This document shows, in pieces, positions 26,862 through 62,853 of a DNA stretch of 64,000 bases (its first letter is position 1; every line of letters starts with the position of its first letter). The stretch spans positions 806,001 to 870,000 of the forward strand of contig WIUZ02000014.1 in assembly GCA_015956445.1 (NCBI GenBank), written 5' to 3'. Origin of the DNA: Thelephora terrestris (Eukaryota; Basidiomycota; Agaricomycetes; Thelephorales; Thelephoraceae). The notes beneath the pieces are model-generated. The model ran no database searches. It was not told the origin of the DNA and saw nothing but the letters and a program-made list of their open reading frames with translations. The position numbers were made by a program, and so were the translations under genes.

Positions 26862-28528
26862 TTCATTTCCACCAATACGCCGTCGCTTTATTGTGATATC
26901 CCTTGAACCTCCCCTTCGCGACTCTCCGGGCTCGTGATCGGCGAGGCACAGGGTGTCCCGTGGATATCGGGGGTGGAGCTTGAGGCCTTGCGCGAGGTCG
27001 TTCAGTTCATTTCGTATTACCCGACGGCGATCTGCTGCAACCCGGCACGGATAAGAGGGCCAGGAAAGTGCCATATTTCTAACCCCCCCTTTGACCTCCA
27101 TACGCTCCTACCGTCCATTCCGGATTCCCATCTTACGAAATATGTTTCTCAGTGCCAAAGTTCCGTATGTGCCACCTTCTTCAGATATTGTTTGAGTTCT
27201 TATCGCAACCACCCCAAGCCCACCTCCTCCCCTCAGGTACGAGCCGATCTGGGATATCAGTTATACTGCAGGCCCATTGACGGATCACTTCTCTTTAGCG
27301 CTGCCGGAGGAGAACGTCCTCTTCCACCCATAGGCATTGCGTACGCGGCTGGTGCGGTCTACTGATACCTGGGCTAATAGCTACTACAGTGTCATGGGCG
27401 CGACAGGAAGCGGAAAGACCTCGGTGAGGACTACACACCGTTGATATGTCTGTGAGCTGACCCCTAGTTTCTAGTTCATCAACGCTGCCAGCGGTTCACA
27501 CCTTCGTGTCGGAAATAACTTGAAGTCATGTACTGCAGAAGTCGAAATCGCCGAGGAATTCACCCTTGACGGGCGACGAGTGCTCCTCATCGATACCCCC
27601 GGCTTCGACGATACCAACGTGAGCGACGCCGAAATCCTAGAAAAGATTGCTGCATTCTTGGCGGTAACGTGAGTACGATTATTCACCTGTGGATATTATT
27701 TACCCAAGCTGGGCTAGGTACAAGAGCGGGTCCAAACTCGCTGGAATCATTTACGTCCATCGCATCTCCGATGAGCGATTTACCGGGGTATCCGTGCGAA
27801 ACTTCAAGATGTTCCGACAACTTTGCGGAGACTCGACGCTGAAGAACGTCGTTTTCGTGACGAATATGTGGGGGAAGGTTGAGGATGCCCTTGGAGCAGC
27901 TCGTGAAAAGGAACTCGCCGAAGTTTACTTCAGACCGGCTCTCGAAAAAGACGCACAGCTCGCCCGTCATCACAATACCCCACAGTCCGCACACGAAATC
28001 ATTCGCCGTATCATGCAGAACAACCCCGCCCCCCTCCTGATCCAGCGAGAGCTCGTTGACGAAGGCAAAGATATCAAACAGACATCAGCCGGTGTGGCTG
28101 TCAACGAAGAGCTCACCAAGGCGATGGAACGCCATGAAGCCGAGATGAACGCCCTTCGTGAGGATATGCGTCAAGCGCTTGAGGAGAAGGACGAATGGAT
28201 GCGGAAGGAATTGGAGGAAGAGAGTCGTAAGCTGAAGACACAGGTGGATAAGATGAGAACGGAGATGGCGAACATGGCAACCAAATACAACGAAGAACGG
28301 ATGAAGACGGAGCAAGCGATGCGGCGGATGCAAGAGCAGGGGGTCCAGGAGAGGCAGAAAGCTTATGAAGAGCACATGAAGCAGATTGAGGAGCTCAGAG
28401 CCGAGCTTGAGAGGAACACCAACGCTACTGCTGGTGAGCGTGAAGAGCTGCTACGACGGATCCACGAACTGGAGTGCCGATGGGATTCTCGTCCTCGGGG
28501 AGGCGGAAAGGGGTGTATCATCATCTAG
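26862..28528 (+). repeat. Tandem duplication, copy 1 (GTPase plus upstream region)
   Basis: This segment matches 29155-30823 from a block reading ATTTCCACC through the whole GTPase gene. The upstream halves are clearly diverged, while the coding halves are close, so the duplication is direct and the coding part is under constraint or conversion. Confidence 0.85.
27142..28528 (+). CDS. GIMAP/AIG1-like P-loop GTPase A with CaaX tail (396 aa)
   Basis: Five exons (27142-27189, 27237-27340, 27390-27423, 27475-27668, 27718-28528). The 34-nt third exon encodes the Walker A loop (VMGATGSGKTS). Next come the switch region with LLIDTPGFDDTNVSD (G3) and VVFVTNMWGKV at the place of G4. A helical linker and an amphipathic coiled coil (KAMERHEAEMNALREDMRQA onward) fill the C-terminal half. 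The last four residues are CIII, a CaaX box whose final Ile favours geranylgeranylation. The protein should bind GTP, dimerise through the coil and sit on membranes by prenylation; all three are inferences from motifs. The two N-terminal exons are less certain than the rest. Confidence 0.85.
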
Positions 28529-29154
28529 TAGTGGTCTGTAGAGAGTCTGGTACGCACTGGCGATCGAAGTGTTTCCCTGGCAAGGGTCGATAACTCATGT
28601 TGACCATGCTGTACTATTCATGGTCCATTTTCTGGGCAGTGCGATGCAATGCGATAACGTTATAACCCTTCGATGTGCTACGCAAACGCGGCGGAGTGGC
28701 AGCGATGTAGTCCGAGGTCACGTTTTCGGCCGTTGAAAACGTGGGGCACGCGGAGTTTGCCCCTGCAGCACGATGGACTACGATGGAACGTCCAGCAGCC
28801 ACCCTACATTCATACGCCTTCATAAACTGAGCTTCCTTTGCTATCTCCATTGGACCACACTTCTGGCTTGCTGGTGTTCCTGGCATTGCCTGGTAATTTC
28901 CGTAGCACCCCCATGCACTGTACAGCACGGACAATAGTGCCGGTGGGTATCGACCCCCGCCAAGCCCGTCACCAACACACACCACAGTAATCCGGCTGTA
29001 AATTCTTCGGGACCGCCTCGTCTCCGCGAGTAACCGACACAATCGTCCATGCTTTCCTCCGGCATTTATTGTGAAGACCCGCTCGCGTGTACATCATTCG
29101 GAATCGGTGTGCACCCGGGAGGCTGAACAAGGTTTCCAACATTCGGTGGATTCC
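28529..29154. other. Spacer between the two tandem GTPase copies
   Basis: No gene is recognised. Open frames on the minus strand lack domains. Confidence 0.4.
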
Positions 29155-30823
29155 CATCATTTCCACCGAAATGCCGTCCCTTCATCAGGATATCCCGTCG
29201 TACCTCCCCTTCTCAATTCTCCTGGCTCATGGTAGCTGACGATCAGGGTGGCCCGTGGGCGCCGAGCGTGAAGCTTGGGGCTTGAAGCCTCGTTTAATGT
29301 ATCTTTGGTCACGCGACAGAGATCTGCTGTAATCTGGCACGCATAAGAGGGCCGGGAGAAAGCCATACCTTCTTACCCCCTTTGACCCCTTGGACACTCC
29401 TACCATCCAGCCCGACGTACCATCTTACGGAGAATGTTTCCCAATGTCAAAGTTCCGTATGTACCACCTTCAGACATCGTTTGAGTGCTTATCGTGACCG
29501 CCCCAAGCCCACCCCCTCCCCTCAGGTACGAGCTGATCTGGATCCTTGGCCATAACGCAGGTCCATTGATGGATCACTACTCTTTAGAGATGCTGGAGGA
29601 CAACATTCTCTTCCGCCCATAGGCATTGCGTACGTGACTGGTATGGGTTACTGGCACTTAAGCTAATGACTACTACAGTGTCATGGGCGCAACAGGAAGC
29701 GGAAAGTCTTCTGTGAGGACAACACGCTATTGATACGTCCGAGAGCTGATCCATGATTTCTAGTTCATCAACACTGCCAGCGGTTCACACCTTCGCGTCG
29801 GGAAAAACTTGAAATCATGCACTGCAGAAGTCGAGGTCGCCGACTTCATCCTTGACGGGCGACAGGTCATCCTCATCGACACTCCCGGCTTCGACGATAC
29901 AAACGTGAGCGACGCCGAAATTTTGAAAAAGATTGCTGCATTCTTGGCGGTAACGTGAGTGAAATCGCTCACCTGTGGATATTATTGACCCACGCTGGGC
30001 TAGGTACAAGAGCGGGTCTAGGCTCGCTGGGATCATTTACATTCATCGCATTTCCGATGATCGATTTACCGGGATATCCGTACGAAACTTCAAGATGTTT
30101 CGACAGCTTTGTGGAGACTCGACGCTGAAGAACGTCGTTCTCGTGACAAATATGTGGGGGAGGGTCGAGAAGGATGTCGGGGAGGCTCACGAAAAAGAAC
30201 TCGCTGAAGTTTACTTCAGACCGGCTCTCGAAAAGGACGCACAGCTCGCCCGTCATCACAACACCACGCAGTCCGCGCATGAAATCCTTCGGCGTATCAT
30301 GAAGAACGACCCCGCCCCCCTCCTGATCCAGCGAGAGCTCGTTGACGAAGGCAAAGATATCAAGCATACATCAGCCGGTGTGGCTGTCAACGAAGAGCTT
30401 AACAAGGCGATGAAACGCCATGAAGCCGAGATGGACGCCCTTCGTGAGGATATGCGCCAAGCGCTCGAAGAGAAGGACGAATGGATGAGGAAGGAATTGG
30501 AAAAAGAAGCTTCTAAGCTCAAGGTACAGATGGATAGGGTGAGGATGGACGCGGTAACAATGGCAGCTAAATACGACGAGGAACGGAAGAGGATGGAGCA
30601 GGCGATGCAGCGGATGCAAGAGCAGGCCGTCCAGGAGAGGCAGAAGGCTCATGAAGAGCACACGATACAGATCAACGAGCTCAGAGCCAAGCTTGAGGGG
30701 AACACCAACACTTCTGCAAGCGAGCGAGAAGAACTGCTGCGACGGATCCACGAACTGGAGTCTCAGCAGATCTTTACTACCGGCCCCTCGAGAAATTTCT
30801 GGGATCGGTGTGTTGTCATGTAG
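29155..30823 (+). repeat. Tandem duplication, copy 2 (GTPase plus upstream region)
   Basis: Partner of 26862-28528, in the same orientation about 2.3 kb downstream. Confidence 0.85.
29434..30823 (+). CDS. GIMAP/AIG1-like P-loop GTPase B with CaaX tail
   Basis: Close tandem paralogue of the gene at 27142. The core exons are clear: the Walker A exon 29679-29712 (VMGATGSGKSS), the switch exon 29764-29954 (ILIDTPGFDDTNVSD) and the long last exon 30004-30823 with VVLVTNMWGRV and a coiled coil. It ends in CVVM, a CaaX box whose Met favours farnesylation. The N-terminal part is doubtful: the equivalent of paralogue exon 2 (from 29526) meets a TAA after nine codons, so either splicing differs or the 5' end is damaged. 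The start at 29434 is taken from alignment with the paralogue. Confidence 0.75.
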
Positions 30824-31432: not shown

Positions 31433-32929
31433 ATGTCTGTGCCCGTTCCAGGGTTCATGATGAACACCTCAAGGAAGATATACGATGAGGTCCACTCATC
31501 TGTGAAGAATCTCCAAAGGTCGACACCACCATCGCCCTCGACTTCTGTCGGTCTGCGCCGTCCACCCCCAGCACTACTCTCCTCCCCCAAAGGTAGAACA
31601 AAGGATCGGGCGTACGTAGCTCCTTCACAGGGGTCATACACTCCCGAAGTAAAAATCCTGTATGTTTTACTCATGTCCTCCCGGTCAAACCGGACCCTTT
31701 GCGCTTCGACCAATCTCACCTCCCGCTGATAGTGTCATGGGTGCGACGGGTAGCGGAAAGTCAACTGTGTGTCGCATTTTTGCTGTGTTACCAAGAAAAC
31801 TTACCAGATATCTCCGTCGTTCATAAAGTTCATCAACCTTGTCAGTGGGTCAGGCTTCGACGTTGGCAAAGGACTGCGATCTTGCACGAACAGTGTGCAA
31901 GTGGCAGGGGCGTTCAATCTTGATGGCCGTCGCGTCGTTTTGATCGATACACCGGGATTCAACGATACCACGCAAAGCGATACGGAAATACTTCGGACGA
32001 TCGTTGCCTTCCTCGGGGCCTCGTGAGTAACACACGACCTGATCCATCTTCAGCCTCTGACACACCGAAATCTCGATATCCCCGTCCCCATCGTTCTGGC
32101 TTCTGCGCACAGGTACGAACAAGGTGACACGCTCGCTGGTATCCTCTACTTTCACCGAATCTCGGATCTCAGAATGAGTGGGACCCAGACGAGAAACTTC
32201 AGGATGTTTCAGAACCTCTGCGGTGATGTTGCACTGCAAAATGTCGTCATCGTGACCAATATGTGGAGCAGAGTTGAGCTGGAAGTCGGTCAGGCTCGTG
32301 AAGCGGAATTGAGGGAGGATGACATGTTCTTCAAACCTGCCCTTTCGAGGGGTGCCAAGATGGCTCGGCACGAGGACACCAATTCCTCCGCTAACGAAAT
32401 CATCCGTCTCCTCATCAATAACCGCCCGCTGCCGCTGCAGATCCAGAAGGAGCTCATCGAAGAACATAAAGATATTCTCGAGACGAGCGCTGGACAGGAG
32501 CTAAATCAAGAGCTAAATGATGAGATCAGGAAGCACCAAGAAGACGTACGCAACCTCACGGAGGAGATGGAACAGGCTACGAGGGACAAGGACGAAGAGA
32601 CGAGGGTTGAGCTGGAGAATGAGACTAGAAGGGTACGCGAGCAGATGCGGCGGTTCGAGGAGGAGGCTCAGAGGCTGGAGTCTGAGTACCGGAGGGAGAG
32701 GGGGCAGTTTCAGTTAGAGCTCGCGGAACTGGAGAGAGAGAGGCGGAAAGGATACCATTGCGCCGAATATCCGCTGCAGACCCAACCCTACCATTTCACT
32801 CCCACCATCGGACTCGGAGAGCAAATTGTGGACGCGTCAGGGCGATTTGCTGAAAAGGTGGTGTCTCGGGGGGTCGCCTCTGTGAAAAATCTCACTCGAA
32901 GCGTTGGAAAAAAGCTGTCGGGGTTTTGA
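31433..32929 (+). CDS. GIMAP/AIG1-like P-loop GTPase C with basic amphipathic tail (423 aa)
   Basis: Exons 31433-31659, 31733-31766, 31829-32022 and 32113-32929. The N-terminal 70 residues are Ser/Pro-rich and unique to this copy. The 34-nt second exon again encodes the Walker A loop (VMGATGSGKST); then VVLIDTPGFNDTTQSD (G3) and VVIVTNMWSRV (G4 position). A strongly charged coiled coil follows. Unlike its neighbours it has no CaaX box: it ends in a basic, amphipathic stretch (SRGVASVKNLTRSVGKKLSG) that could lie on a membrane surface. Function is unknown; nucleotide binding and dimerisation are inferred. The start is the first in-frame ATG after an upstream stop. Confidence 0.85.
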
Positions 32930-34314: not shown

Positions 34315-34763
34315 AAATAAGGCATAGGGCCGGCGAGCGGCAGAGCCCGGGACGTTTCGCGATGGTCTCGACTCTCACCCCTCCATGAAGCCAGATCAAC
34401 ATCTCTGGGCATATATTTTGACGGAAATGCGATGGATTCTGCACATATAATACAAAATTGTTCACTACAGAAAAAGGACCACCTGTACCACGATGTGTAA
34501 CATGTTTCCAAGATAGCAATTATACCCTCGAAGACGTTGGGCTCGTTCTCAAGCCTCCGCCGTTTGATGCAAGCTCATATACATAGATCAAGCCTGGGCT
34601 TTCACCGCGCGTGATTGAAGGTTTGAGCAAAGGCGAAGGTGATGAACATGAGGGCCGTGTTGGTGACGAGTGCGAAGGTTTGGTTTGGGGGGTGTTGGGC
34701 ACGCGTGACATAGGATAGACAACGGTGAATAGCGTTATAGACCCGGTACTTACGTCCCGGGAA
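34315..34763. repeat. Left arm of a long inverted repeat
   Basis: The reverse complement matches 35155-35717 over nearly its whole length with few differences. Arm ends share GCCTTATTT at the outside and CCCGGGACGTAAG at the inside. A spacer of about 390 bp separates the arms. Confidence 0.85.
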
Positions 34764-34850
34764 CGTTCGTGTAGATGGTTTTGAGAGCTGCCAGGAACGC
34801 CCCGAAGAGTGTGAGCACGAGGCCCCAAAGTGTGAAATTGAACCATCACA
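34600..34850 (-). pseudogene. Fragment resembling a sugar-phosphate/nucleotide-sugar transporter
   Basis: The minus strand reads LWGLVLTLFGAFLAALKTIY, which resembles a membrane helix of triose-phosphate-transporter-family proteins, up to a GTAAGT donor. A second hydrophobic stretch (TFALVTNTALMFITFAFA) follows after an intron-like gap. No start, stop or complete domain is present, so it is a scrap, partly inside the left arm of the inverted repeat. The family call rests on short motifs. Confidence 0.35.
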
Positions 34851-34856
34851 GCCTGC

Positions 34857-34932
34857 CTTGAGCTCCCAGGGATCAAACCTGCGGATGTCGAAATTCAATT
34901 GCATGACGACAAGCTCATCATTTCCGGAAGAC
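34857..34932 (+). pseudogene. HSP20/alpha-crystallin fragment
   Basis: A 25-codon plus-strand frame reads LELPGIKPADVEIQLHDDKL followed by IISG, the start of the alpha-crystallin domain of small heat-shock proteins. Nothing before or after continues the domain. It sits in the loop of the inverted repeat next to an unrelated transporter-like scrap. Confidence 0.6.
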
Positions 34933-34984
34933 GTCCGGCACCCCAGCTTTCTGGGCCGAGCGCCACCTACCCGGTCCAAGATCG

Positions 34985-35115
34985 GCTGACACAGGCTTCA
35001 GGCGGTGTTCGTGCTATGGCCTCGGGTTGTAATGCGTCTGGCAGACACACGAAGAGCCTCGGGGGAGGGAAGAGAGAGGCAGAGGGCGTGATCCGGCATG
35101 AGTTTCCTTTCTGAG
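34985..35115 (-). repeat. Dispersed segment shared with 38690-38830
   Basis: The reverse complement matches the sequence just upstream of the kinase pseudogene at 38832 (both contain a TGTGTGTCTG core flanked by similar sequence). It is probably the 5' remnant of another kinase copy. Confidence 0.6.
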
Positions 35116-35154
35116 GACATTTCCCCAACCCTCCGCCACGCCGCGCCTCTAGTA

Positions 35155-35717
35155 ATTCCCGGGACGTAAGTACCGGGTCTTGGAGAACTATTTTTAAGCG
35201 CCACTGCCAAAAACTCGATTTCTCTGCAAGTCGTCACAGGTCACATTTTGGTCACAGCGACCTCTTGAGTCTTTAGCGTTGCTCTGCCAGGTACTATCGT
35301 CCCGCGCTATTCACCGTTGCCTATCTATACGCCACGTGTGCCCGACACCCCCAAACCAAACCTTCGCACTCGTCACCAACACGGCCCTCGTGTTCATCAC
35401 CTTCGCCTTCGCTCAAACCTCTAATCACGCGTGGTGACAGCCCATGCTTGAGCTATGAGCTTGCATCAAATGGCGGAGGCTTGAGAACGAGCCCAACGTC
35501 TTCGAGGGTATATTGTTATCTTGGAAACATGCAACACATCGTGGTACAGGTGGTCCTTTTTCTGTAGTGAACAATTTTGTATTATATGTGCAGAATCCAT
35601 CGCATTTCCGTCAAAATATATGCCCAGAGATGTTGATCTGGCTTCATGGAGGGGTGAGAGTCGAGACCATCACAAAACGTCCCGGGCTCTGCCACTCATT
35701 GGCCCTATGCCTTATTT
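35155..35717. repeat. Right arm of a long inverted repeat
   Basis: Partner of 34315-34763 in opposite orientation. It is about 115 bp longer because of an insertion or partner deletion at roughly 35180-35310. Confidence 0.85.
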
Positions 35718-35834
35718 GTTTTAGGCCGGTTCACAGAGATCTCTTACCGGAGATCGATATCATACCTGGCTCGAATTCAGTTGGTATGTTCCGACTCGCG
35801 AGTCAGCGCCCCCGAGATGGGGACGTATCCTCCG

Positions 35835-35885: not shown

Positions 35886-38327
35886 ATGAAGGCTGCCTCC
35901 TCACCCCCATCCTCCTCCTCGAACAGGCCAATGTCACATGACCTACCACGCAGCCCACCCTACCCAAACAACCTTCTCAACCCAGAATCTTTCGAACATT
36001 CCGAACGAGCTCTCGTTCAACAGTATTCCCGGAATTATCTCTCACGGAACACTCCCAATCGGCCGCCAAATCAGGTGTTCAAGCCAAGGTCTGTACTTTG
36101 AGGCAACTACCCATGATATCTACCGGATCCACCCCCCTTCCTCACCTTAATGAATAAACCTGCCTACACGCAGAACGTTGTGTATCCATCCAAGGATGAC
36201 AACTAATCATCAAAGGTTGAGAGTGCTAGGGTCCAAGACAGGTTATGTCCGCATGCCATATGCTCGGGCGCCCGAGAGTGCCTTCCTCACCAAACTCATG
36301 TCTTTCAACACAAGATCCAGGTTACTTTCAGAAGCTCTCACCAAGATACCGACATCTCAAGGAGGCGTGAACGCCCCATTGTCATTGCAAACCGAGGATG
36401 CTTTGACCCTCGTAGACGTCCTCGATCAGGTAAGCGGATCTACGGGATATGGGGTACTCAATTCAATCACCCCCGCACAGGCATTCGAGGCACCAAACAT
36501 GTCCCTTGATCTCCGGAGAAGGAGCACCCGCATCCTTCGGAGAGTTTGTGGCGGACACACAATCCTCCCACGTTCGTGCATCCTTTCAGACAATATCTCC
36601 AAGGCAGGAGACATCGCTTTCGCCTCTGGCAGATTTGCAGACGTCTGGAAGGGCCACCACGATGGGAATCCTGTGTGCATAAAGGCATTCCGCACGTACA
36701 CGGCCGATAACTTGATAGAAATAAAGAAGGTTTGCAGACGATGATTTTACATTGCACGTACCATACCATTGACGACCAGTCGTGGCAGCGCTTATTCCAA
36801 CAACTCGTGATTTGGCGACGACTATCACACCCCAATGTCCTCCCCGTTTTGGGTATCTCCCCCGAGCTTTTCCCGTTATGCATCGTCTCTGGATGGATGA
36901 TTGACGGGAACATCCTCGATTTTATGTCGGCCCATCCCAAAGTCAGCCGCCTCCGTCTCGTACGCCTAATCTTCGTTTTTATCTCAACCCTCAAACGCTG
37001 AAATGTACCATAAGCTCGCGGAAGCGGCGAGCGGATTGCAGTATTTACATTCGATGGACATTGTCCACAGCGACCTCAAGCCCGTAAGTGCCACAAGCAG
37101 CTTCCGTCGGCTCCCGCTAATGGTTCCACACAGACGAACATTGTCATCGATAGCAACTTCCATGCTCGTCTCACTGACTACGGGTTCATGGCGATCATCT
37201 CGGATTTAAGCACTATCGACCCCCGTAGCACCACACCTCCCTCCACAGGAAGCGTTCGATACATGGCACCAGAACTGCTCAACCCCTCCCACTCCGATCT
37301 GGAAAACAGCAACCCGACGAAGGAGAGTGATGTTTACGCGTTTGGAATGGTCACGTACCAAGTGAGCAGCGCGTGTCACATCTAAGCTACGGTGATTAAA
37401 CGCGGCGTGCAGGTGATTACAGGATTGCAGCCCTTCCCCGGGGATTACGATGATGTAATCATTCACAACGTCGCCACCGGAGAGCGACCAAGCCAGCCTC
37501 CGTGCATGATCGAGTGGGTTTCAGATGACATCTGGAACTTTATCTCTCGATGCTGGTCTGCCTCGCGGGATGATCGGCCTGATGTCGAATTCGCAGTGAA
37601 CACCCTGAACGATGCGACCAATGCATCTGAAGCCAGGCGCGTGAAATCTTACAGGACCAATGACCGGGGGAAAAAGGACTCCCGCCGCGGACCTGGTGCG
37701 TCAAATGGATATAGATTACGAACACTGCTCAACTATTTTTTTATCAGTGAGTCGACACTCGCCGAGCGGAAATGCGTCGAGGCGTCGAATTGATGATGCA
37801 TCTATCCATGAAATCTTCCCATATTCTTCATCACCGCCTCCTGAAGTTCCTCCGACTCCATCTCCATTCATCCTGAAGACACCCGCACGGCGGAAAGAGA
37901 GACAAAGTATGTATCATCTGTTGAAATCACACTTGCGCTGACGACGCCGTCGAAGAACGACAAAAGAGGGAATTCAGAACATGGCACGATTCCACCGGGT
38001 TTCATTGCCAGCACGCAGCCCTTGCGTGTCACAAGAATATGGTCGTCCGCCTATCCTCGTCTGATGGCATGCTACTGGAAATACCTGAGGACAAACTTGC
38101 TCGAGATGACGTAATTTACCTCCAGGCGCAAAAAGATCAAAAGGCACAGCGCAAAGTAATTTCTCTCTTCCTCTCTGTACCACCCAATCGGCTGACGTGA
38201 TTTGAAACAGCGGAGTATGAGTCCTGCAATCCTCTACGTTGCCGTTTCTCACCATCTAACAGGGTCCAAAGACTCCACTTACGCCAAACGACCGACTTTA
38301 TTCGAGAAATTTCGAAACCTATTATAA
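35886..38327 (+). CDS. Protein kinase D fused to an SHD1 domain (644 aa)
   Basis: Ten exons (35886-36088, 36174-36429, 36481-36729, 36789-36959, 37015-37083, 37134-37361, 37413-37695, 37748-37906, 37956-38155, 38211-38327) keep frame throughout. A Ser/Pro-rich start and a helical N-terminal region precede the kinase: glycine loop ASGRFADVWKG, ATP-binding Lys in VCIKAF, catalytic loop VHSDLKP, DYG in place of DFG, then VRYMAPELL. A Pro-rich linker (SSSPPPEVPPTPSPF) leads to FRTWHDSTGFHCQHAALACH and VVRLSSSDGMLLEIP, an SHD1 (Sla1 homology 1) domain. SHD1 of yeast Sla1 binds NPF sorting signals in endocytic cargo. HRD to HSD and DFG to DYG changes leave the catalytic Asp and metal Asp, so activity is possible. 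A kinase plus cargo-binding domain suggests signalling at membranes (inference). Confidence 0.84.
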
Positions 38328-38831: not shown

Positions 38832-39960
38832 AAATGCCGCCGGGATTCCATCATTTCCCACCACTGGACCCCAAGTCTGAGGGATTGCTGGAGTTGTTCT
38901 AGTCGTCCTCGCTGTCAAGACATGGGCGCACGACTATTAGGGAAGACAAATCTTCGGCAGGGTATGTCCCTCTCGAACGTTATTTGGCGCAGTTCAATGA
39001 TTTCACCTCTGAACGCTAAGTGTGATTCCAGACGGCGCTTGTAGATGTAACTGTTAAATTCTTTCTGAGGAAGGTTAATGCCTAGAAGAACTGGGTCCTC
39101 GCAGGACGTGGAGAAGAACCGCGCGTGTAGAGCGCGAGGGTGAAAACCTTGTCAACTCGAAAGAACACGTGACTAACTGATCGGTGGCTACGGAATGACA
39201 GAACGAAAGCGGAACATTTTAGCACGAAACTTTGAACTTTGCCTTGGGCATTCTCGGAAAGTCGCGTAGAAAGATGGGGCACCTCCCCACCTCATATCTG
39301 CTATCGGACAAGTCCAACCTCGGGATACCTCAGGGACGCCCGACAAAATCTGGGCCAGTAAGATCTGAATCCAAACGTGTTCAGGTTTGCTCATGCGCCG
39401 TGCAGGATATCTGCAAAGAGGTGGTCATCTGAGAGAGCCCGTCCCATCCCAACGTTCTCGACCTTATTTGGGTCCCTGAAGCCCTTGAGAAGGAATGTTT
39501 TTGAGTAGACGGGCAAAATAACGTGGTGGAATGTGTCCCTGCTAACGGTTGTAGGCCGCAATCGCGTGGTTCATCGTCGCCACTCACCGAACATTGTACG
39601 GCTTGCGGATGCTGGATGCCGTCCTGAAAGGTGCAGGATCCAGCCAGGCCCTACGAATACCCCCCACATGATCGTATGGCAGGCAAATGCTTTGATCGCC
39701 AATACAAACCCCGCCTCAGCATGGGTTCCAGACCCCGGATTCACGGCCACCTTGCACAACGCAAGCCTCGGGGTGGAGGCGGTAATGTCTGTAGCTGGTG
39801 GAGGCCGCCTTCCATGCAACCGGACTTCCTCGTTCCGTAAGTTCGGGTTGAAAAAGTTACACCCAGGGCGGAAGCCGACATACACAAGGCACCAATGATG
39901 ATATACCAAGTGTTTACCGCACGACGTGTTAAGCCAAACACCTTTCTTTTGAGGGTAACA
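38832..39960 (+). pseudogene. Kinase pseudogene related to kinase F
   Basis: Pieces of the kinase F protein can be followed in order on this strand: MPPGFHHFPPLDPKSEGLLE (38835 on) matches its N terminus; GHLPTSYLLSDKSNL (about 39270) matches GHLPSSYLLPDKFDL; ALIANTNPASAW and ASLGVEA (about 39690-39780) match the region around its DFG; and a block near 39880 reading AEADIH and MIYQ matches its helix F. Between them the frame is repeatedly broken by stops and shifts, and the catalytic loop is not recognisable. It is a decayed host gene, in opposite orientation to its functional-looking relative 22 kb away. Confidence 0.7.
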
Positions 39961-43136: not shown

Positions 43137-43284
43137 TGTTTCAGTTCAGCCATTCCACGCTCCATCATCATGGCAAGTCTCCGTTGTTCGCGGGATGCCG
43201 GATGCCGCAAAATGGGGAAGTATACATTCTCAAAATATAATCTCGCTGAAACCGCTTTCTCGAGGGTGGCGAGGGAAGGGTTGA

Positions 43285-50204: not shown

Positions 50205-50788
50205 CGATTTCGCAACATGAATCACCGTGACCACAACGGACGTTCCTACCATATTATACCGTAGACGTCATTATATACGTACATCTTTAGCGCTGTGTAA
50301 CATACTACTAGAGACGTGTACCTGTGATTGTTGTACATTACATGCCACAGCTAATAGTTTCAAACCCCGTGGACGTTATCGACCTCGAGTTGACGGAAAG
50401 TGATTTTCCGCAGTAGCTGGGAGGCCTCCTTTCTTCAACAGATCCTGCCTCATTCATCACACGGAGGTCACAGGGAAACCTATTGGGTAACATCTGAGTC
50501 TGCGCAGACGCATGCACGGGTATTCGGGCTCAAGCGCTAAGCCTCGTGTTTTCACCGTGACGAGTCTTCTTTCAATGACATCGAGGAGTTGAGAAAAGCG
50601 GTGGAACGGTCTCAGGTTATGCGTCCTCCAATGCGTGGTGCGGGAAATGTTGTGGTAGCATTTGTATATTGCACAAGCAAAGACAAGCAACCGGCAAGAC
50701 AGGAGGGCCAGCGAGGGCTAACTTGGTGGTCAGAAACGAGGAATGATCGCGATGATCGGGCGGGTGACTCGCAGGGTGCCACTGCACC
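50205..50788. other. Intergenic stretch before the biotin ligase gene
   Basis: It holds the 3' UTR of kinase E and the promoter of the next gene. No other feature is seen. Confidence 0.45.
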
Positions 50789-52899
50789 ATGACCGCGAGG
50801 GCAAAAATGAACGTCCTCATCTACTCCGGGCCCGAAGTTGTCCAAACATCGCTCCCACTCCTGACAAACACTATCCGGACTCTCCTCTTACCGAACTACA
50901 CCGTGCAGAGCATCACCCAACACGCGCTGATCAACCACCCTTGGGCGCCTACCTGTGCCCTGCTCGTCATCCCGTCTTTCTCATCGACAACCAGCGGATC
51001 GGAGTTGACGACTCGGGTGTCGAAATATGTAAACGATGGGGGCTTGCTTCTGGCTTTTTCTGTTGGCGCAAGGGGTCGAGCAAAGGACGTTTTGGCGCTT
51101 CCGGCTTCCTATGAACTAGGATCGAGTGGGTCGTCGCCGAGCTTGGACCTCCCTGATTCCGTGGTTGTAGAATTTGCGCCTACGCCGGGTCTGTCCGGGG
51201 GTGGGGGCATGGAAACTGCAACGGTAGAGAGTTCCGCTGGTGATATCCTGACATCGGTCCAATCCCAAATCCCACGTCCACTCTTCACAAATCTCACGGA
51301 TCGACCTAATGTCAGGGTGTTGGGGAGATTCGGGGATGGAGAAGTTGCGGGGATCGGCCTTTCATTTGGTCCTCCCAGATCAGGACGAGCTATACTGTGG
51401 GCCCCAAGGTTGGATCAACCGTTGGTGAAAGTACCTTCGCCAGATCCAGATGAGGAAAAGCGAAGGCTGGGACTCTTGAGAGAGAGTCTGCGGGAGTGTG
51501 GGTTAGAGCTTCCCACCGCGGAAGCCGTATCTGCTAGGGTTCCGACTCCCATGTATTTCGTTGGGGCAGCCCCGGTCGTCGATTCCATCCTCTCTAAGCT
51601 CTCCGTGGACTTCACACGAGAGGCGACGAAGGAACTGAAGGATCAAAACGACACTTTCGTTGTTCACCCTTCCTCTGACACCTTGACGGATCTTCCGGAA
51701 CCAGATGCGACGACGTTGCAGCCGAAACGCATCATCGCTCTTACCAACAATATATTCCCGCCAAGAGAGAAAACTCCCACGTTCGACGTCGCGCTATACC
51801 TGGATGAACTAGCGAAGGGGAAGCAGAGAAGGGATATGGATGACGACTCGGATGCTTGGCCGATCGGGGCGGCCCTAATGTACGGCGAAGTGGTCACAAG
51901 CACACAAACCATGCTGGATAGGTTTGTCCTTATGAGCTCACAACTGTATTATACAACGGGATGACACAGCTGTGCAGGAACCCCAGATTTCTTGCCAACT
52001 TGCCGAACCCTCTCCTCTGCCTCGCGTCTTACCAACTCCAAGGGAGGGGAAGGGGAGCAAACATGTGGTTATCTCCTTATGGGTGCCTTCAGTTCTCACT
52101 CGCCCTGAGGATCCCTTGCGCGAAGGTTCCGATGAACAAACTCGTGTTCTTGCAATATCTCTTCTCGTTGGCGATCGTGGAGGCGTGTAGGGACCAAGCC
52201 GTGCTGGGAAGCTACGGAGAAGCCGTCAAGATCAAGTGGCCGAACGATATTTATGCCGTTTTCGGTGAGGGAGAGCACAGAGAACTAAAGAAAATCGGCG
52301 GAGTGTTGGTGAACACTGGGATAATCAACAAGGATTCTCAGATCGTGATTGGTAGGCACCGAGTTGATTCCTGTTCTTGACGACCTTGCTGAATGCTGCG
52401 TAGTAGGGTGTGGCCTGAACGTCCTTTGTTCACCTCCATTGTGTTCTCTCCTTCAACTGGTTCCACCGGAGGCATCTTTGGAGCTCAGAATGGAGAAGGT
52501 CGCAGCCATGATCATGATCAAGCTCGAACCTCTGCTAAACCAGTGGATCAGCGATGGAGGATCGTTCGAATCTCTCACAGATCTTTACCTGAGAAGGTGG
52601 CTACATTCGTACGTATATCTTCAACTGCGATCGTTCGAGACTTTCGCTCATTCCCACATAGCAACGAGACCGTTGAGTTGACGACGGTGACCCCACCACA
52701 GCGGGTCAAGATCGTTGGGATAACCCCCGACTTTGGCCTGCTACGCACCCTTCCCGTCGGTCGAAGTGGTTCTAGCGGTTATGGCGGGTGGGGATACAGT
52801 GGATACGGAGGGTCAAGCTCGTTCATTGACTTGCAGCCCGATGGTAACAGCTTTGATATTATGGCTGGGTTGATTAAATCCAAGTCCACATCAGCCTGA
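50789..52899 (+). CDS. BPL1: Biotin--protein ligase (holocarboxylase synthetase)
   Basis: Four exons (50789-51921, 51978-52351, 52407-52608, 52662-52899) give 648 residues, close to yeast Bpl1 (690). The N-terminal half is the GATase1-like BPL domain (MNVLIYSGPEVVQTSLP, YVNDGGLLLAFSVGA). The catalytic half starts near EVVTSTQTMLDRNPRFL and contains YQLQGRGRGANMWLSPYGCL, the GRGRxG biotinyl-AMP loop, then VKIKWPNDIYA with the catalytic Lys, and IGCGLNVL. A C-terminal beta domain follows, with a short Gly/Tyr-rich insert (SSGYGGWGYSGYGGS). The enzyme activates biotin with ATP and transfers it to carboxylases such as acetyl-CoA and pyruvate carboxylase. It converges with RPC6, 136 bp away. Confidence 0.94.
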
Positions 52900-54977: not shown

Positions 54978-56339
54978 CTACATGACAATACATCTCTTAA
55001 CGTCTGCAGCTTTCTTACGAAGTTCAGCCATCGTCTTCTTCAGAGTCGCAATCTGTGACGCGTTTTCGCGTCCATCGCGTTCGAGCTCCTTCACCCTCTC
55101 CTCGTACTTCCGTAACTCGGCCTCGTATCCCGCCTGGATCCGCGACATCTGCGCCTCAAACCTGGTGTTTATCCTTTCCTCCATCTCGCGCCGGGCCCCT
55201 TCAAACTTGGACTGCATCTCCGCAGAGTCTTTCTGGAGTTTTCCCAGCCTTTCTTCCATCCTCTTCTTCTCTTCCAGCAACTCTTCCTTAGACTCTTCAT
55301 CCTTCTCCTCCATCGCCTTCCGCATGTTCTCCTCCAGCTCTCTCATTTCCCTCTCATGTTTTTCTACCAATTCGCGGATCTCCCGGTTCAGTTCTGCTCC
55401 TGCCCCTGTCTGTCCAATGTCCTTTCTTTCATCGATCAACTCGCGTTGAATCTTTAGGACGATGGGCTGGTTCTTGAGAACCTCTCGCAATATCGCTCGT
55501 GCGGACTCGGGTGTGTTGTTATGGCGGTGCACCTGTGCGCCCTTGTCAATCGCGGTTTTGAAATGCTCGTCCCTGAGTTGTTGTTCTCTGGCTGCCCCAA
55601 GCTGAGGGTTTACCCGTCCCCACATGTTCGTCATAAGGATGACGTTCTTCAACGTCTTCTCCCCGCAGAGTTCCCTAAACATCCGGAAATTCTTGACCGC
55701 CAGGCCTCCAAACTTGTCGTCTGAAATACGGTGGACGTAGATGACTCCTGCGAGTTTCGCCCCAGCCGAATATCTGAATATCTCAGCCCATCGAGCTCAG
55801 GAATTTGGATTTCATACAGTTTGACTCACGATTCTCCCAGAAACGCTGCGATCGACTTCAACACGTCTGTATCGCTCATGTGGGTATCGTCGAATCCCGG
55901 AGTGTCGATGAGCACAACTCGTCGGCCGTCTAGTATGAACTCTACAGACTCTTGAATCTCGGATGTACAGGAGTTGAGGTCTTCCCCAACTTTAAGATGA
56001 GACCTGCTCGCTAGGTTCACGAACTGTAATTGCGTTTGTTAGATTTGGCGTTGAAATAGATCGAACGGGGCGTTCCGCCGTACTGTAGTTTTCCCACTCC
56101 CGGTGACCCCTAACACGCTACGCCAAAGGTTAGCCGCCTCGAACGTTATCCGAGACGTAGACTACACACGCGATGAGCGCTGGAGGATCTTCGGAGTATT
56201 TCATGAACGGGTCATCGGTCGGTGACCAGCCGCCGCTCTCAAGGTCATCTGGTGTAGAGAAGGTGTCGACATTCGTATAACCGTCGGGCGTGAGCTGACC
56301 GGATCCGTCCTGGGTTGAGAGCCACATGTCCATGTCCAT
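54978..56339 (-). CDS. GIMAP/AIG1-like P-loop GTPase K with CaaX tail (397 aa)
   Basis: Exons 56339-56170, 56117-56084, 56023-55830 and 55773-54978. An Asp/Ser-rich start (MDMDMWLSTQDGSG) leads to PPALIA at the end of exon 1; the 34-nt exon 2 encodes VLGVTGSGKTT; exon 3 holds VVLIDTPGFDDTHMSD; exon 4 holds VILMTNMWGRV and a long Glu/Arg/Lys-rich coiled coil. The last residues are CIVM, a CaaX box whose Met favours farnesylation. It starts a minus-strand run of four related units (K, a remnant, M, N) and is the mirror image of the plus-strand GTPases at 27-33 kb. Nucleotide binding and membrane attachment are inferred from motifs. Confidence 0.87.
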
Positions 56340-56539: not shown

Positions 56540-57275
56540 ACTGTTATCCCTCCCCTAGAAGATCCTGCGTGGTCCTCTTCAAATTCTCGATCTCGATCAC
56601 ATTCTTCTGTCCCTTGCGCTCCAGTTCTTCCACCCTGGCCTCGTGTTTCGCTATCTTTTCCTCCATCTCACTTTGAGCTGCTGCGAGCTCAGACTGTATC
56701 CGGGTACACTCTTTTTGGAGCTTCTGCATCCCCTTCTCTCATGCCAGCTCCCGGCACAAGTCTTTTTTCTTTTTCTTTGATCGGCTCTCGTCTGCTTGTC
56801 TCCAGCTCCCCGAGACATCCCTTTGGTACTCTTCTATCACCTCAAGAACCTCCCGGCTTAGCTCTACCCCTGTCTCTGTCTGCCCGATGTTCTTGCGTGC
56901 AATCTAGCTCTCTGATTTCCCTCTGGTACTTCTCTACCACTTCACGGATCTCTCGGGGTCAGTTCTGCCCCAGCTCCCGTCCTCTTCAATCTTTTTTCCT
57001 TCTTCAACCAATTCATGTCTAATTTTGAAAAAAAAACCGGCTGGTTCCCGATTATCTCTCGAAGGATCGCCTGTGCGGACTCAGGTGTATTGTCGTGGCG
57101 CCCCTCTCGATCGCGGCCTGGGAGTGCTCGACCTTGAGCGCTTGGTCGTGTGGATACACACACCTAACTAGGATTGTTGACTTGAAGGTACGAGTGCAAG
57201 CCCAAGTATAGATGCTGATACCACCTGGAGACCGAAGAGATGCCCACAGTTTACCCGCCCTCGCTTTCAAATTCT
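56540..57275 (-). pseudogene. GTPase remnant L (chimeric, no G domain)
   Basis: Reading the minus strand, 57270-57180 resembles the tail-anchor end of GTPase N (KLWASLRSPGGISIYTWACT versus SLWASLRYPARIAIS). This is followed by the middle and coiled-coil part of a CaaX-type paralogue (NTPESAQAILREIIGNQPV, then EKIAKHEARVEELERKGQKN). Frames are broken several times, and the Walker A, G3 and TNMW segments are absent. It looks like a junction left by unequal recombination between two paralogues, and then decay. Confidence 0.7.
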
Positions 57276-57449: not shown

Positions 57450-58712
57450 CTACATGATTGCACAGCTCCGTGCGTACTGCAGAACTCGTGTGCTCCTTTG
57501 CAAATCCTCAATCTTCAACGAGTTTTCGTGTTCCCTGCGCTCCAACTCTCTGACCCTGTCCTCATATTCCTCTCGGATTTTCCTCACCTGCATCCTCATC
57601 TCAGACTGAGCCACGTCAAACTCGAACTGCATCTGGGCAGACTCTTTTTGGAGCTTCACCATCTCCTCTTGCATCGTCCGTCTTTCTTCGGCAAACTCTC
57701 GACGAGACTCTTCGTCCTTCTCCTTCATCGCCTTCAACATGCACTCCTCCAGTTCTTTTATATCCCTTCCGAACCTTTCTATCACCTCACGAATCTCCCG
57801 GGTGAGCTCCACCCCTGCCCCCGTCTGTGCAATGTCCTTTCCTTCGTCGATAAGCTCGCGTTGGATTTGGAGAACGACCGGCTGGTTCCTGAGGATAGTT
57901 CGCAAGATCGCATGTGCGGATTCAGGAGTGTCGTCGTGACGACACAGCTGTGCGCCCTTCTCGATCGCGGCTTTGAAGTACCTGTTCTTGAGCTGCCTCT
58001 CTCGCGCTGCCCCCTGGTTAGAGGTGACCCGTCCCCACATGTTTGTCATGAACACGACATTCTTCAGCGTGTTCTCCCCGCAGAGTTCCTTCAGCATTCG
58101 GAAATTCTTGGTGGCTAAACCCCCAAACCTATCGTCCGAGATTCGATGGACGTATATGACCCCTGCGAGTTTCATTCCGGCTGAATGTCTGAACAAATAA
58201 GTCAGCCATGAAAGGTAATTCCACGCCAGTTGGCTTACACTTCTCCTAGAAATACCGCGATCGATTTCAACACATCCGTATCCTTCTGGTTGGTATCGTC
58301 AAATCCTGGGGTGTCAATGAGCGCGACTCGTCGCCCATCCAGGATAAACTCCTCGGACACCTGGGTCTCGGAGGTGCAAGACTCAAGGTCACCCCCGACC
58401 GGTAGAGAAGACTTGGTGGCTTGGTTCACAAACTGCAGTCGCATCCGTCAGGTTCAGCGACAATATGCCACACATACAGCCTCCCCACCGTAGTTTTCCC
58501 ACTTCCGGTGACCCCCATGATACTGAACCAGTGGGTAAGCCGCCTCAAACGTTGTGCGGGAGGCAGGCTACGTACGCGATGAGCGCCGGAGGATCTTGGA
58601 AGTAGTTCGAGAGCGGGTTCCCGGTGGGTGGGCGGCTCTGGGTGCCGTCTGATGTAGATACAGCATGGGTGTTTGTTGTGAGCCGGTCAGACTTTTGCGG
58701 TGCGATCCGCAT
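57450..58712 (-). CDS. GIMAP/AIG1-like P-loop GTPase M with CaaX tail (367 aa)
   Basis: Exons 58712-58576, 58522-58489, 58432-58239 and 58188-57450, in frame (368 codons). Exon 1 ends in PPALIA as in GTPase K; exon 2 (34 nt) encodes IMGVTGSGKTT; exon 3 holds VALIDTPGFDDTNQKD; exon 4 holds VVFMTNMWGRV, a helical linker and a coiled coil. The end is CAIM, a CaaX box favouring farnesylation. The frame is open upstream of the chosen ATG (58712), so a longer N terminus is possible. It is closest in sequence to GTPase K. Confidence 0.87.
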
Positions 58713-58906
58713 GACGATGCGAATGTGGCAGTATGCGGAAGAAAGTGTGGCGGGTGTGACGTACATACCGGGCGCCCTCATCGTATTCTATACGCACACG
58801 GCCAATCCTCGGGCCTGAATGTTGAATATTGAATATTGAATGCGCATACCGAGACTCCAGTGACAAGAGCTACAGTTATCGTGAGAGTGCAGATACGATT
58901 GTCAAC

Positions 58907-60002
58907 TCAAATGTACAAGCTCAAGCCCCAGTATAGAGCACCAAGCACTATGCAAGAAATGGCAATCCTAGCTGGGTATCGAAGAGAGGCCCACAAGGAA
59001 GCCGCCTTCGCCTTCCTATTCCTGTAGTCCTTGTTCATGTTCACCGACCCGTCTTTAAATCTCCTGATCTCCTTCAGAAGTCCAGCGATGTCGGCCTCCA
59101 TCTGCAACCTAGTTTCCTTCTCACTGTCCCTCAAATTTTCCAGCGCATTTTGCAACTCCTGGACCTGTTGAGCGAGCCTCCTCGTGGACTCTGCCACCTC
59201 TCGATTGATTTCTTCTCCCACAGCTGTCCGATGAAATTCCCTCCCCTCGTCGATCAGCTCTTGTTGGACCTGGAGCGCAGTTCGGCGATTCTTCAAGATC
59301 GCCCGTATGATATCATGGGCGGACTTGGTAGTGTTGGAGTGGCGGAGGAGTTGTGCACCTTTGTCAAGAGCGGGCTTGACGAATTCCGCTGCAAGTTGTG
59401 CCTCCCTTGCCGCGCCAACTGCCGAGTCCACGTTGCCCCACATGTTCGTCGTGAGGACAACGTTCCTCAAAGTCTGATCGCCACAGATTCGTTTCAACCA
59501 CCCAAAGCTACGGGTATCGGACCTCCTCCACCGTTCATCTGAGATCCGATGGAAGTAGATGACCCCGGCGAGCTTCACCTCACTCTCATACCTGGATCAC
59601 GGGTCAGCAGCATGCGATGTGAGGAGAAAATTACGCACACAGTTGCGAGGAAAGCTGAAATGTCCTTCAAAACGTCTGCATCCTCCATTACAGTATCATT
59701 GAACCCCGGGGTGTCAATCAGAACGACCGGACGACCATCGACGTTGAATTCTGGAGAAAGTTGTATTTCCGAAGTGCAAGAACGAAGGCCGTTCCCCACA
59801 CGGAAGGCGTCGGTATTGGTTGCGCGATTTACGAACTGATTTTACGCCACGCTGTCAAGGTCGATGCTGTTGAAGATAATTTTGCACACATACAGTGGAC
59901 TTTCCAGATCCCGTCTCTCCCAGCAGTCTGTTGAGTGTCGTGAGCGACAGTTGATAGATCGCCTTCCTACACTACGCACGCAATGATCTCCTGGCTAACC
60001 AT
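58907..60002 (-). CDS. GIMAP/AIG1-like P-loop GTPase N with C-terminal membrane anchor (309 aa)
   Basis: Exons 60002-59980, 59927-59894, 59835-59641 and 59584-58907. The N terminus is very short (MVSQEIIA) before the 34-nt Walker A exon (LLGETGSGKST). Then VVLIDTPGFNDTVMED and VVLTTNMWGNV follow. The coiled coil is shorter than in its neighbours, and the protein ends in a basic stretch and one hydrophobic helix (ISCIVLGALYWGLSLYI), a tail anchor with almost no residues after it. It should insert post-translationally into ER or mitochondrial outer membrane (inference). The third intron is phase 0, whereas in the relatives it is phase 2. Confidence 0.86.
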
Positions 60003-60411
60003 TGGGGAAATGTCTGAAATCCAAGCAATAGAGGGCTAGTTGCGACACCTGGACCGAGAGGATTGGGGAGGCGAACGGAACGACACAAGGGATTGTGGGA
60101 CCAAGAGAACTGGGCCTAGATTCATATAACAACGGCCATTTCGCTTCTGGGGCCACAAACTGTGGCTGGGGCTATTACCAGCCCATGTAAATGAGGAAGC
60201 CATGATGTCTAGCGGTCGGGCGGACCGGCCGGAAGTATGTGCTGACATGGTGGTTGGACGCTGGCTGGTCGGCATTTTCCGAACGTGATGGCTGAACTCG
60301 GGTCCCGCCATCCACACCCAGTTTGAGCGTTCTCCACGACCCCCGGGCTAATCTCTGGCGAGAGTGCGAACCCAGATGGCTACTAAGAAAACGAGGAAAG
60401 TGGTCCTAACG
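60003..60411. other. Spacer between GTPase N and remnant O
   Basis: No coding feature is recognised. It should contain the promoter of GTPase N. Confidence 0.45.
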
Positions 60412-60985
60412 CTAAACAACGATACATCCACCGTTATCCTTGTTACGAAGGTCACCGTACTGTTGCTGGAGCTCGTTGATTCGCTCTCGCATCGCTTCTC
60501 TCTCTGCAGCAGAGGCAGCAGCAGCGTCCCGTAACTGCCTATAGAGATCTTGCATCTCCTTCAAGAATTCGGCCTCCGCTTGTTCTCTCTCCCTACGCGC
60601 TTGCTCTTGCATCTGCTTGATTCTCTTCTCCGTCCTCATCTTCTCCCCCCGGTAGTGTGAAGCCATACTCTCCGAGTCCTTCTTCATCCTGAGTATCTGT
60701 TCCTGGAGTTTGTGTATCTCCGCCTCCAACTCATCCCTCGTCTCCTGTCCGCGCTCTTTGAGCATCTTGATCATCTCCTCGTCCCTTTCCTTGAGCGCCT
60801 TCTTGATCTCCTCATCCTTCTTTTTGAGCGCCCTCTGCATCTCCTCGCGCGTGGCTTTGAGTCCTGCCCAATACTTCCTGATCTTCTCGTTAAGCTCTTT
60901 GCTGATGGCTTCACCAGCGGCGGTATCGATAATGTCCTTCTTTGCATCGACCAGCTCACGCTGGATCTGGATAAGTAGTGGTGGT
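60412..60985 (-). pseudogene. 5'-truncated GTPase remnant O (coiled coil and CaaX only)
   Basis: The homology starts abruptly at about 60985 inside the linker (IQIQRELVDAKKDIIDTAAG) and runs as one open frame through a charged coiled coil to the terminal CIVV, an intact CaaX box. The whole G domain is missing; upstream sequence is unrelated. As the remaining frame is undamaged, the truncation may be recent, or a coil-only prenylated protein may still be made from an unknown start. The first in-frame ATG would be at about 60840. Confidence 0.7.
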
Positions 60986-61183
60986 TACCAGATAAGGAAG
61001 TTTTCCTCGGTGACAAATGTTTCGACTTCTGAAGCGACTGAGAATTTGGAGAATAATGAATCCGTCAGTGAGGCGTCGGACCCGTGGCTCGGAAGGCGTG
61101 TTATTGCTAATGGTGGATTCGTGAGTGCACTTGAGGGTTATAGCAAAGCAATGTGCTCACAATCTCCAGCTAAACGGCCTTGA

Positions 61184-62853
61184 TCATCTACGCCACATAA
61201 CGTTAGCATTCGGCAGGTGTGCGATGGAAAAGATTGATCTACAACACCTTATGAATTCGACGTCCCTGGGCAGCTGGGAAAGGGACGCACCAAACTCTGT
61301 GAAGTTTGAGTCAGAGACCTCTTGCCGTTGGGTGGCATCCCCAACGGGAGATAGATTACCACAGGCCGAGGCAGCTGACTTGACACGGCTCAGGACATCG
61401 TTCACCTGTGGCCTGAGCTGACGTTTTGTTTGCCAACATTTGTCGAGTAGCTCCCAGAGCTCGTCAGAGAGGCCGATTTCCAGTGCATTCAAGGGCTTAG
61501 GGGGTTTCACTCCTCCCATAACCTGGAAAACCACCTCAGGTCCGGTCCGTTTGCCGTATGGCAGTGTCCCGGTGAGCACCTACATTGAACGATTAGTATG
61601 TGTGCGGGTTAAGAATCGCAATGGTAAGTACTTGGTATATCACCATCGCCATTGCGTATATGTCGGCTTCCTTCGTGGGTGAACCTCTGAAGTCAAGCCC
61701 GAACCTTGACGGAACAAGGCGCTCTGGTGCCATAAAAGGGGTAGTCCCCCCATCCACTTCGGTCTCTTCTGCCTCCATCCCAAGGCTTGGGTCATCCACG
61801 ACTGTCATGGACCCAAAGTCCGCCAGACATGCTGAGACGGGATTGGTATTAGCGATCAGGACATTGGACTATACAATCACGTGAGGGTTGTCCGTGGGAT
61901 CCTGACTGGGAGACTCACACCCTTCAGGTCGCCATGTACAATGCTGGCATTGTGAAGGTACCTCAGTCCTTCAACAGCGTCCGCAAGCTTTAATGTTTCA
62001 GGCAAGCGATGACAAGAAAACACGGAATTGTAGCATACCAGCTTTAGGTGATTGCTAGCGTGAGCGCGAACAAAATCCATGATGTTGCCGTTGACCATCC
62101 AATTGGAAACCATAGAGAACCTCCCTTCCTCGAGGGTATCAGGAACCCCAATGAGGGTGAGAATGTTAGGGTGGTACAGGTTCTTCCACATGGCAACCTC
62201 TTTGCAGAAACGCTGCGCGGTGTGAGCGAGCCTGAACAAGCAGCACTGGCAAGGTTTCCACTGACCTTACGGATTCGGGTTTTGTCGTCCGATTCTAGGA
62301 TTCTCAACGACTTTACGGCAACGGTCACCTCCCCAGACTTGGACACCTTCCACACATTCGAGAAGCCGCCGGAATTGTAAGGTTTCCCGGAGAGGTCGAA
62401 CTTGTCGGGTAAGAGGTAGGAGCTGGGGAGGTGTCCTGTCTTGCCGCACAACTTTGCGAGAACACTGAAAGCAATTACTTCGAGGTCTTTGTCCAGTCGC
62501 AGTTCTCGGAATGCCTTGAAGGTCAAAGATAAAATCATTAACCAGGCAACACAGAACATTCCAGGGAAACACACGCTTGCGATTATCCCGATGAAAACCT
62601 TCGCATCTTCTTCAGAGAGGGCAAGGATAGCCGTCCGTTCGTCCTTCGATAATAAGAATGACCGGAACAAGTTCAGAAAGCCTTCAGATTTCGGGTCGGG
62701 TGAAAGGTAATGCAATCCTGGCGGCACATTGTTTGAGAAGACTATTTTGCACGGATTTAGATAATGACTCGGCAAAAGCTACAACATCTCACTTCTCTTC
62801 GGCTTTGGCTTAGCGTTTCGTGCTTTCAGTAGGTTTGGATGAGACAGGGACAT
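61184..62853 (-). CDS. Protein kinase F (442 aa), canonical catalytic motifs
   Basis: Exons 62853-62793, 62717-62575, 62514-62266, 62212-62039, 61987-61919, 61868-61632 and 61579-61184 total 443 codons. The start has a strong context (GCCACCATGT). A helical N-terminal region (DPKSEGFLNLFRSFLLSKDE) precedes the kinase: NSGGFSNVWKV loop, VTVAVKSLRI with the ATP-binding Lys, IVHGDLKGSNVLI, LADFGSM and PFMAPERL, then a C-lobe ending near QLRPQVNDVLSRVKSA. This resembles the TKL-like kinases expanded in agaricomycetes. Unlike kinases D and E it keeps DFG and lacks an SHD1 domain. The first exon is inferred; the frame is also open upstream of 62717. A MITE sits about 40 bp upstream of the start. 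Confidence 0.82.

Follow-up and report, generated by a model that had tools for sequence, protein, structure and literature searches.

What kind of proteins are encoded by the group of GTPase-like genes in one part of contig C6 of Thelephora terrestris, and do they form a unit with the protein kinase genes lying among them? The question was addressed in a window (the whole stretch of DNA analysed, 64,000 nucleotides) covering C6:806001–870000 in a genome of 40.6 Mb and 60 contigs, C6 itself being 1.05 Mb long. The region between 26.9 and 62.9 kb of this window contains six GTPase-like genes (G1 to G6), each with its G domain complete, and two GTPase remnants, together with one intact-looking kinase gene, one mostly open kinase gene, another interrupted by an in-frame stop and a kinase pseudogene. 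The clustering is genuine, and the architecture joins a GBP-like build to an AIG1-like core whose G4 motif is aberrant, in a fungus. We consider it somewhat probable (roughly 0.55) that these proteins are nucleotide-switched membrane scaffolds of a GBP/GIMAP-like build, lineage-expanded in a duplication-prone region; this reading starts from what was observed directly, namely how the genes are built and clustered, their motifs, tails and copy number, and the purifying selection acting on the G domain. Should the build be what it looks like, fungi would own GBP/GIMAP-like membrane scaffolds that are left aside in work on AIG1 evolution (PMC3723955, PMC7053062).

The G domain and its aberrant G4 motif

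In spliced models, the six genes were found to contain the P-loop GxTGSGK[ST], the SCT motif and DTPGF[DN]DT and to end with a long exon, and all of them share a splice pattern in which a phase-2 intron is followed by a small P-loop exon, an exon with SCT and DTPGF, and the long last exon. The introns in the window are short and of GT-AG type, which together with the genes present is as expected of a fungus and probably of an agaricomycete. The splice models were made by hand or with our own aligner, without RNA, and the first exons of G1 and G2 are uncertain. G1 (27142–28528, plus strand) was modelled in five exons with GT-AG sites and encodes a coil and the CaaX end CIII; its Pfam matches to MMR_HSR1 (34.2 bits), AIG1 (30.9 bits), Dynamin_N (30.2 bits) and FeoB_N (27.3 bits) are all above cut-off. 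It is followed on the same strand by its tandem sister G2 (29562–30823; CaaX CVVM; MMR_HSR1 39.1 and AIG1 34.0 bits) and by G3 (31433–32929; spliced model; AIG1 32.1 bits), which belongs to a clade lacking CaaX ends. The minus strand carries G4 (54978–56339; CaaX CIVM; MMR_HSR1 32.5 bits, AIG1 23.9 bits and thus under cut-off), its sister G5 (57450–58712; CaaX CAIM; AIG1 24.7 bits, also under cut-off) and G6 (58907–60002; spliced model; AIG1 43.3 bits), which ends in a hydrophobic tail. The remnants, both on the minus strand, are a degenerate copy at 56559–57225 with stops and frame breaks, seen as tblastn pieces, and a coil-only piece at 60412–60984 that ends in CIVV directly behind the tail of the kinase K62. 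The count of six whole P-loop GTPase genes and two remnants given in a preliminary description of the locus was thereby borne out.

The distribution of the family was monitored by searching the genome with the G4, G6 and G3 proteins, which gave 82, 63 and 86 exon-level matches, respectively, the strong places from the G6 and G3 searches being already among the G4 matches. Modelling of 21 places outside the window gave 11 with a complete open G domain, bringing the family to 17 members including the window six, and none of the 17 was flagged when they were checked for internal stops and frame errors. The other ten places were fragments, relics or a divergent copy on C45. Because weaker places on C34, C1, C25, C6 and C59 were left unmodelled, 17 open members is a lower bound. 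The divergent C45 copy (C45:2216832–2217455) has a degenerate P-loop and reads TTDW where others have TNMW.

MMR_HSR1 was above cut-off in all six window proteins and AIG1 (cut-off 27 bits) in four, namely G1, G2, G3 and G6; FeoB_N was above cut-off in G1 and G2, and Dynamin_N in G1. Across the 17 G-domain sequences at an expectation value (E) of 1e-3 or lower, AIG1 and MMR_HSR1 each matched every one and Dynamin_N matched 11. The AIG1 match ended at model position 121–122 of 212 in each window protein. When the second half of the domain (conserved box, G4 and G5/IAN region) was compared with AIG1, none of the 13 sequences given, out of the 17, matched at E ≤ 1, and its PDB profile returned no GIMAP at E ≤ 10. 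The profile of the domain against PDB gave weak and mixed matches, the top ones being GTPases: Era (3.4e-4), Der (4.4e-4), GIMAP4 (0.0022), septin Cdc12 (0.0047) and GIMAP5 (0.0056). Among the best 60 of 74 matches, GIMAP7 (3zjc, E 0.022) was the sole near end-to-end alignment (2–238). The GBP model PF02263 matched only G3 of the six window proteins at E ≤ 0.1, with 18.4 bits against a cut-off of 21.1, and the Pfam Septin model reached 17.9 bits in the best window protein against a cut-off of 26.2; at E ≤ 1e-3 it matched one of the 17 (6.1e-4).

The register of the G4 motif was set by alignment with NKWD of Der. In place of NKxD, 15 of the 17 members have NMWG, G3 has NMWS and the C23 member has NMWD, so that the lysine is replaced in all 17 and the aspartate in 16. 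The P-loop glycine and lysine, the SCT threonine and DTPG do not vary among the 17; because of this invariance and of the purifying selection described below, it can be argued that phosphate and Mg binding have been kept. The altered G4 letters suggest that base specificity is relaxed or changed. In YchF/OLA1, NxxE replaces NKxD and is thought to alter nucleotide specificity, and a helical coiled-coil part lies past the core (PMC8779481), both of which resemble the present family. Unlike YchF/OLA1, the TGS domain is not among the Pfam families listed for the window proteins, and YchF/OLA1 is not named among the best 60 of 74 PDB profile matches. Furthermore, the arginine of HRISD, just past the presumed fourth strand, is invariant in 17 of 17; an arginine finger has been reported for paraseptin GTPases (PMC11238149), and by analogy the HRISD arginine may serve as one. 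Because NMW[G/S/D] is conserved while purifying selection acts on the G domain, a direct and cheap test is possible of whether a GTPase-like protein has changed its nucleotide.

The preliminary description had called these proteins GIMAP-like, which holds for the shared G1–G3 core but not for the second half of the domain or for G4. Since none of the 13 second halves compared matches AIG1 and NKxD is aberrant in 17 of 17, the label GIMAP is not established. PMC3723955 describes coral GIMAPs that also have no recognisable conserved box, and therefore the mismatch of the second half does not exclude AIG1/GIMAP absolutely. AIG1 was undetected in representative fungi according to PMC3723955 and PMC7053062; the latter also mentions fungal AIG proteins carrying kinases, so the presence of AIG1-type proteins in fungi is not new. 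Our literature search brought up no paper on AIG1 in Agaricomycetes. Many such proteins exist in mushroom genomes.

Coil, membrane tails and a predicted scaffold

A CaaX end was found in eight of the 17 members (CIII, CVVM, CIVM, CAIM, CLIM, CVIM, CMIM and CVIM). A methionine at the last CaaX place favours farnesyl. Four of the nine members without CaaX have hydrophobic tails, with mean hydropathy of 1.98 over 19 residues in G6, 1.87 in C6_738, 1.69 in C6_755 and a weaker 1.17 in C6_744; the models of C34_2360, C23_1816 and C45_2015 are less sure at the 3′ end. Membrane targeting is thus suggested by sequence for five of the six window genes, G1, G2, G4 and G5 through CaaX and G6 through its hydrophobic tail, and the earlier claim of membrane-targeted GTPases stands for these five but not for G3, which has neither. 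The AlphaFold model of the last exon of G1 showed strands and helices ordered as in the second half of a G domain, followed by a 110-residue helix (123–232), with a mean pLDDT of 74.8 and pTM of 0.33.

This build was compared with known families. Like AIG1/GIMAP/IAN proteins (PF04548), the fungal proteins have the G1–G3 core, a coil past the G domain, some membrane tails and tandem clusters with partial copies; a coil together with a membrane anchor is present in some AIG/GIMAPs (PMC7053062). Unlike them, they show no AIG1 match beyond about position 122 of 212, have NMW[G/S/D] at the NKxD place and carry CaaX in 8 of 17. The likeness to GBPs of the dynamin superfamily lies in a G domain, a long helical part and a C-terminal CaaX (8 of 17 here, prenylation being predicted), and membrane binding of GBP1 requires CaaX farnesylation (PMC7025589); the differences lie in G4 and in the GBP Pfam model, which stays under cut-off and is seen in G3 only. 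In the preferred scaffold reading, the family would be lineage-expanded P-loop NTPases in which an AIG1/TRAFAC-type G domain is followed by a long helix, predicted as a coiled coil, and in many members by a C-terminal membrane anchor: a CaaX box for one group, a hydrophobic tail for some of the remaining members. Nucleotide binding would make the G domains dimerise, the coils would bring paralogues together, and the anchor would put the assembly on a membrane, giving switchable scaffolds or coats, by analogy with GBPs and GIMAPs. GBPs are larger.

Several observations weigh against the scaffold reading. Five of the 17 members (G3, C6_741, C6_624, C34_2360 and C45_2015) have no CaaX and a tail hydropathy of 0.90 or less; the tails of C6_741, C45_2015 and G3, judged by eye, are perhaps amphipathic. 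The coil prediction comes from one member only, and the AlphaFold model covers only the last exon of G1, the G domain being split over three exons. A Foldseek search of PDB with this partial model gave nothing at E ≤ 0.001; the best match was aIF2-gamma at 0.077, the best matches mixed GTPases (aIF2-gamma, G-alpha and Nog2) with unrelated proteins, and GIMAP was absent from the best 50 of 581, so that the comparison of folds speaks neither for nor against an AIG1-type (paraseptin GTPase) structure. Furthermore, NMWG would break the switch step if it abolished nucleotide binding.

Clustering, selection and duplication

Twelve of the 17 members lie on C6, at 624, 738, 741, 744, 753 and 755 kb and in the window, and C13, C58, C23, C34 and C45 carry one gene each. 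C6 thus holds 12 of 17 modelled members in 2.6% of the genome (binomial 5e-16, under an assumption of independence that is untrue of tandem copies). This clustering is not due to chance, and the expansion of family copy number in this genome is real. The Pfam family search of the genome gave no AIG1 match and 14 MMR_HSR1 matches, none of them at these GTPase-like genes, which were probably missed because introns split the domain. A bacterial source was rejected, as at least 12 bacterial loci, among the 594 stretches listed, share only about 57–62 residues of the G1–G3 core; a viral source was likewise rejected, with none of 600 viral stretches confirmed.

In the phylogeny, the tandem pairs G1/G2 and G4/G5 were supported at 100/100 and 100/99, and a seven-row clade with G3, in which no row has CaaX, at 98/96. 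Grouping the eight CaaX rows into a single clade was not rejected (p 0.56), nor was the pairing of G6 with C6_755 as sisters (p 0.48), their sisterhood itself not being shown. A single burst or clade of the six window genes was rejected (approximately unbiased test, p 0.0016); because they do not form one clade, the window cluster mixes old lineages. The clades tested were picked after inspection of the tree.

The ratio of nonsynonymous to synonymous substitution (dN/dS) was measured in nine of the 136 possible paralogue pairs by Nei–Gojobori counts with no site test, the whole-gene dS exceeding 1 in six of the nine. It was 0.07–0.18 in the G domain, 0.10–0.41 in the tail and 0.51–0.52 in the N-terminal part, which was measurable at length in two pairs. 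Purifying selection on the G domain speaks for function, and there was no sign of gene-wide positive selection; the positive selection anticipated earlier found no support in these pairs, which are paralogues and not strains.

The region 48089–51836 of the window is an inverted repeat, 88% identical over about 3.8 kb, of 63414–67169 (window numbering, past the window end). It contains a kinase and the first part of a biotin-protein-ligase gene, and the second copy runs into C6:870001–873169. Because of this inverted recurrence, the stretch is part of a larger duplicating zone. A further biotin-ligase fragment (91%) was seen at C6:886.0–886.6 kb. In the scaffold reading, tandem and segmental duplications would have produced the clusters in a part of C6 also rich in unrelated protein-kinase copies, and the pieces seen point to that whole part being duplication-prone.

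It is possible, though clearly short of probable, that these are GTPases of the ordinary signalling or trafficking kind, which multiplied by drift in a duplication-prone region and have no particular part in defence. Purifying selection, the many relics and the segmental duplication of the neighbours (biotin-ligase fragments and kinases) are all consistent with such an origin, but at least 17 members have been kept open with differing tails, which hints at diversification while still being compatible with drift.

Degenerate G3-like relics, alike in spacing, were noticed near contig ends on C1 (4488–4545 kb), C25 (90–120 kb), C34 (2376–2560 kb) and C6 (1029–1041 kb). Some pairs score alike (C25:120 kb and C34:2549 kb), which suggests that the relics are copies of one long segment. 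A subtelomeric origin was considered since several lie near contig ends, yet it was rejected as no TTAGGG array was present in the terminal 1 kb of the seven ends inspected (both of C6 and C25, one each of C34 and C1, and the start of C59).

Kinases and other neighbours

The kinase K36 (36196–37613, plus strand) is mostly open and known from tblastn pieces, an exon-by-exon model being absent; PK_Tyr_Ser-Thr was above cut-off in two of the pieces and Pkinase in one. Its sister K48 (48089–49467, plus strand) has, relative to K36, an in-frame stop at 48302–48304 in the first exon, and the two regions form a 77% DNA repeat (36042–38316 and 47901–50167). The kinase pseudogene (39226–39945, plus strand) is in pieces with stops. 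K62 (61184–62853, minus strand; HGDLK, ADFG; Pkinase 120.7 bits) has an intact-looking domain and a conserved 3′ tail at 60988–61125; among the matches listed, its nearest relatives lie on C6 at 554, 663, 699 and 890 kb, with 62–87% over exon matches. The three kinases and one pseudogene described earlier thus reduce to the pseudogene, one intact-looking kinase (K62), one mostly open (K36) and one doubtful (K48). Between 60984 and 61125, the kinase tail, one TAA and the GTPase coil remnant follow in the same frame. A kinase-GTPase fusion was rejected here: because three of the four kinase relatives inspected have the tail and none has the coil, the contact is a probable deletion junction.

Merging the matches listed (part of a total of 204), and excluding K36 and K48 of the window, gave a kinase family of at least 118 genes on many contigs, 15 of the 118 being on C6 (binomial 4e-7). 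On C6, a listed kinase lies within 53 kb of each of the 12 GTPase genes. The nearest listed kinase is 13, 112, 386 and 596 kb away from four of the five GTPase genes off C6, and the fifth has none on its contig. A GTPase-kinase functional module was therefore rejected, the listed kinases being widespread and none lying within 110 kb of four of these five genes; the earlier proposal of one functional island is weak at best, the co-location being seen on C6 but for one of the five other genes. The kinases are a separate large family that neighbours the GTPases, and a partnership beyond C6 is not supported. Expanded tyrosine kinase-like (TKL) protein kinases are described for Laccaria bicolor (PMC2838846), and the large family here, with its PK_Tyr_Ser-Thr match, is similar to them in these two respects.

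These data bear on the proposal that true fungal GIMAP/AIG1 proteins and kinases form an innate-immunity or allorecognition island, which we regard as unlikely. AIG1 above cut-off in four of six window genes, the enrichment of kinases on C6, and the tandem clusters, coils and membrane tails resembling animal AIG families (PMC7053062 and PMC3723955) speak for it, but they are met by the second halves without AIG1 match, the aberrant G4, the off-C6 genes with no kinase nearby and the purifying rather than positive selection over the gene in nine paralogue pairs. Quite unlikely, too, is a fungal membrane-coat family separate in origin from animal GBPs/GIMAPs, whose altered-base coiled-coil NTPases, possibly using ATP or several nucleotides, would assemble on membranes by way of alternative anchors (prenyl, transmembrane, perhaps amphipathic) and serve cell-autonomous defence or allorecognition, having diversified as duplications occurred within a single plastic chromosome region. 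It is very improbable that these are pseudo-GTPases, that is, coiled-coil scaffolds on membranes that work independently of nucleotide, their G domain no longer binding any, as the replaced NKxD residues would allow, given the invariant P-loop, SCT and DTPG residues and the purifying selection on the G domain.

The preliminary description had placed the stretch between housekeeping genes; such genes do flank it, but they also lie inside it, namely a CSTF2-hinge gene (42293–43330, minus strand; Pfam CSTF2_hinge 38 bits) and the biotin-protein-ligase gene, whose first long exon (50768–51964, plus strand) matches BPL_N with 66.6 bits. More open reading frames (ORFs) follow the latter to about 52899, and the Pfam search of 52393–52896 gave no match. 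At 34315–35717 of the window there is an inverted-repeat element with arms of 92–96% identity, copies of which (90–99%) occur on C13, C1 and C12, and partially on C23; by its sequence it looks mobile. An Hsp20-like fragment, recognised by eye, adjoins this element. Farther upstream, a tandem repeat with a 63-base shift was observed at 18511–18845, within the long ORF 16234–19308.

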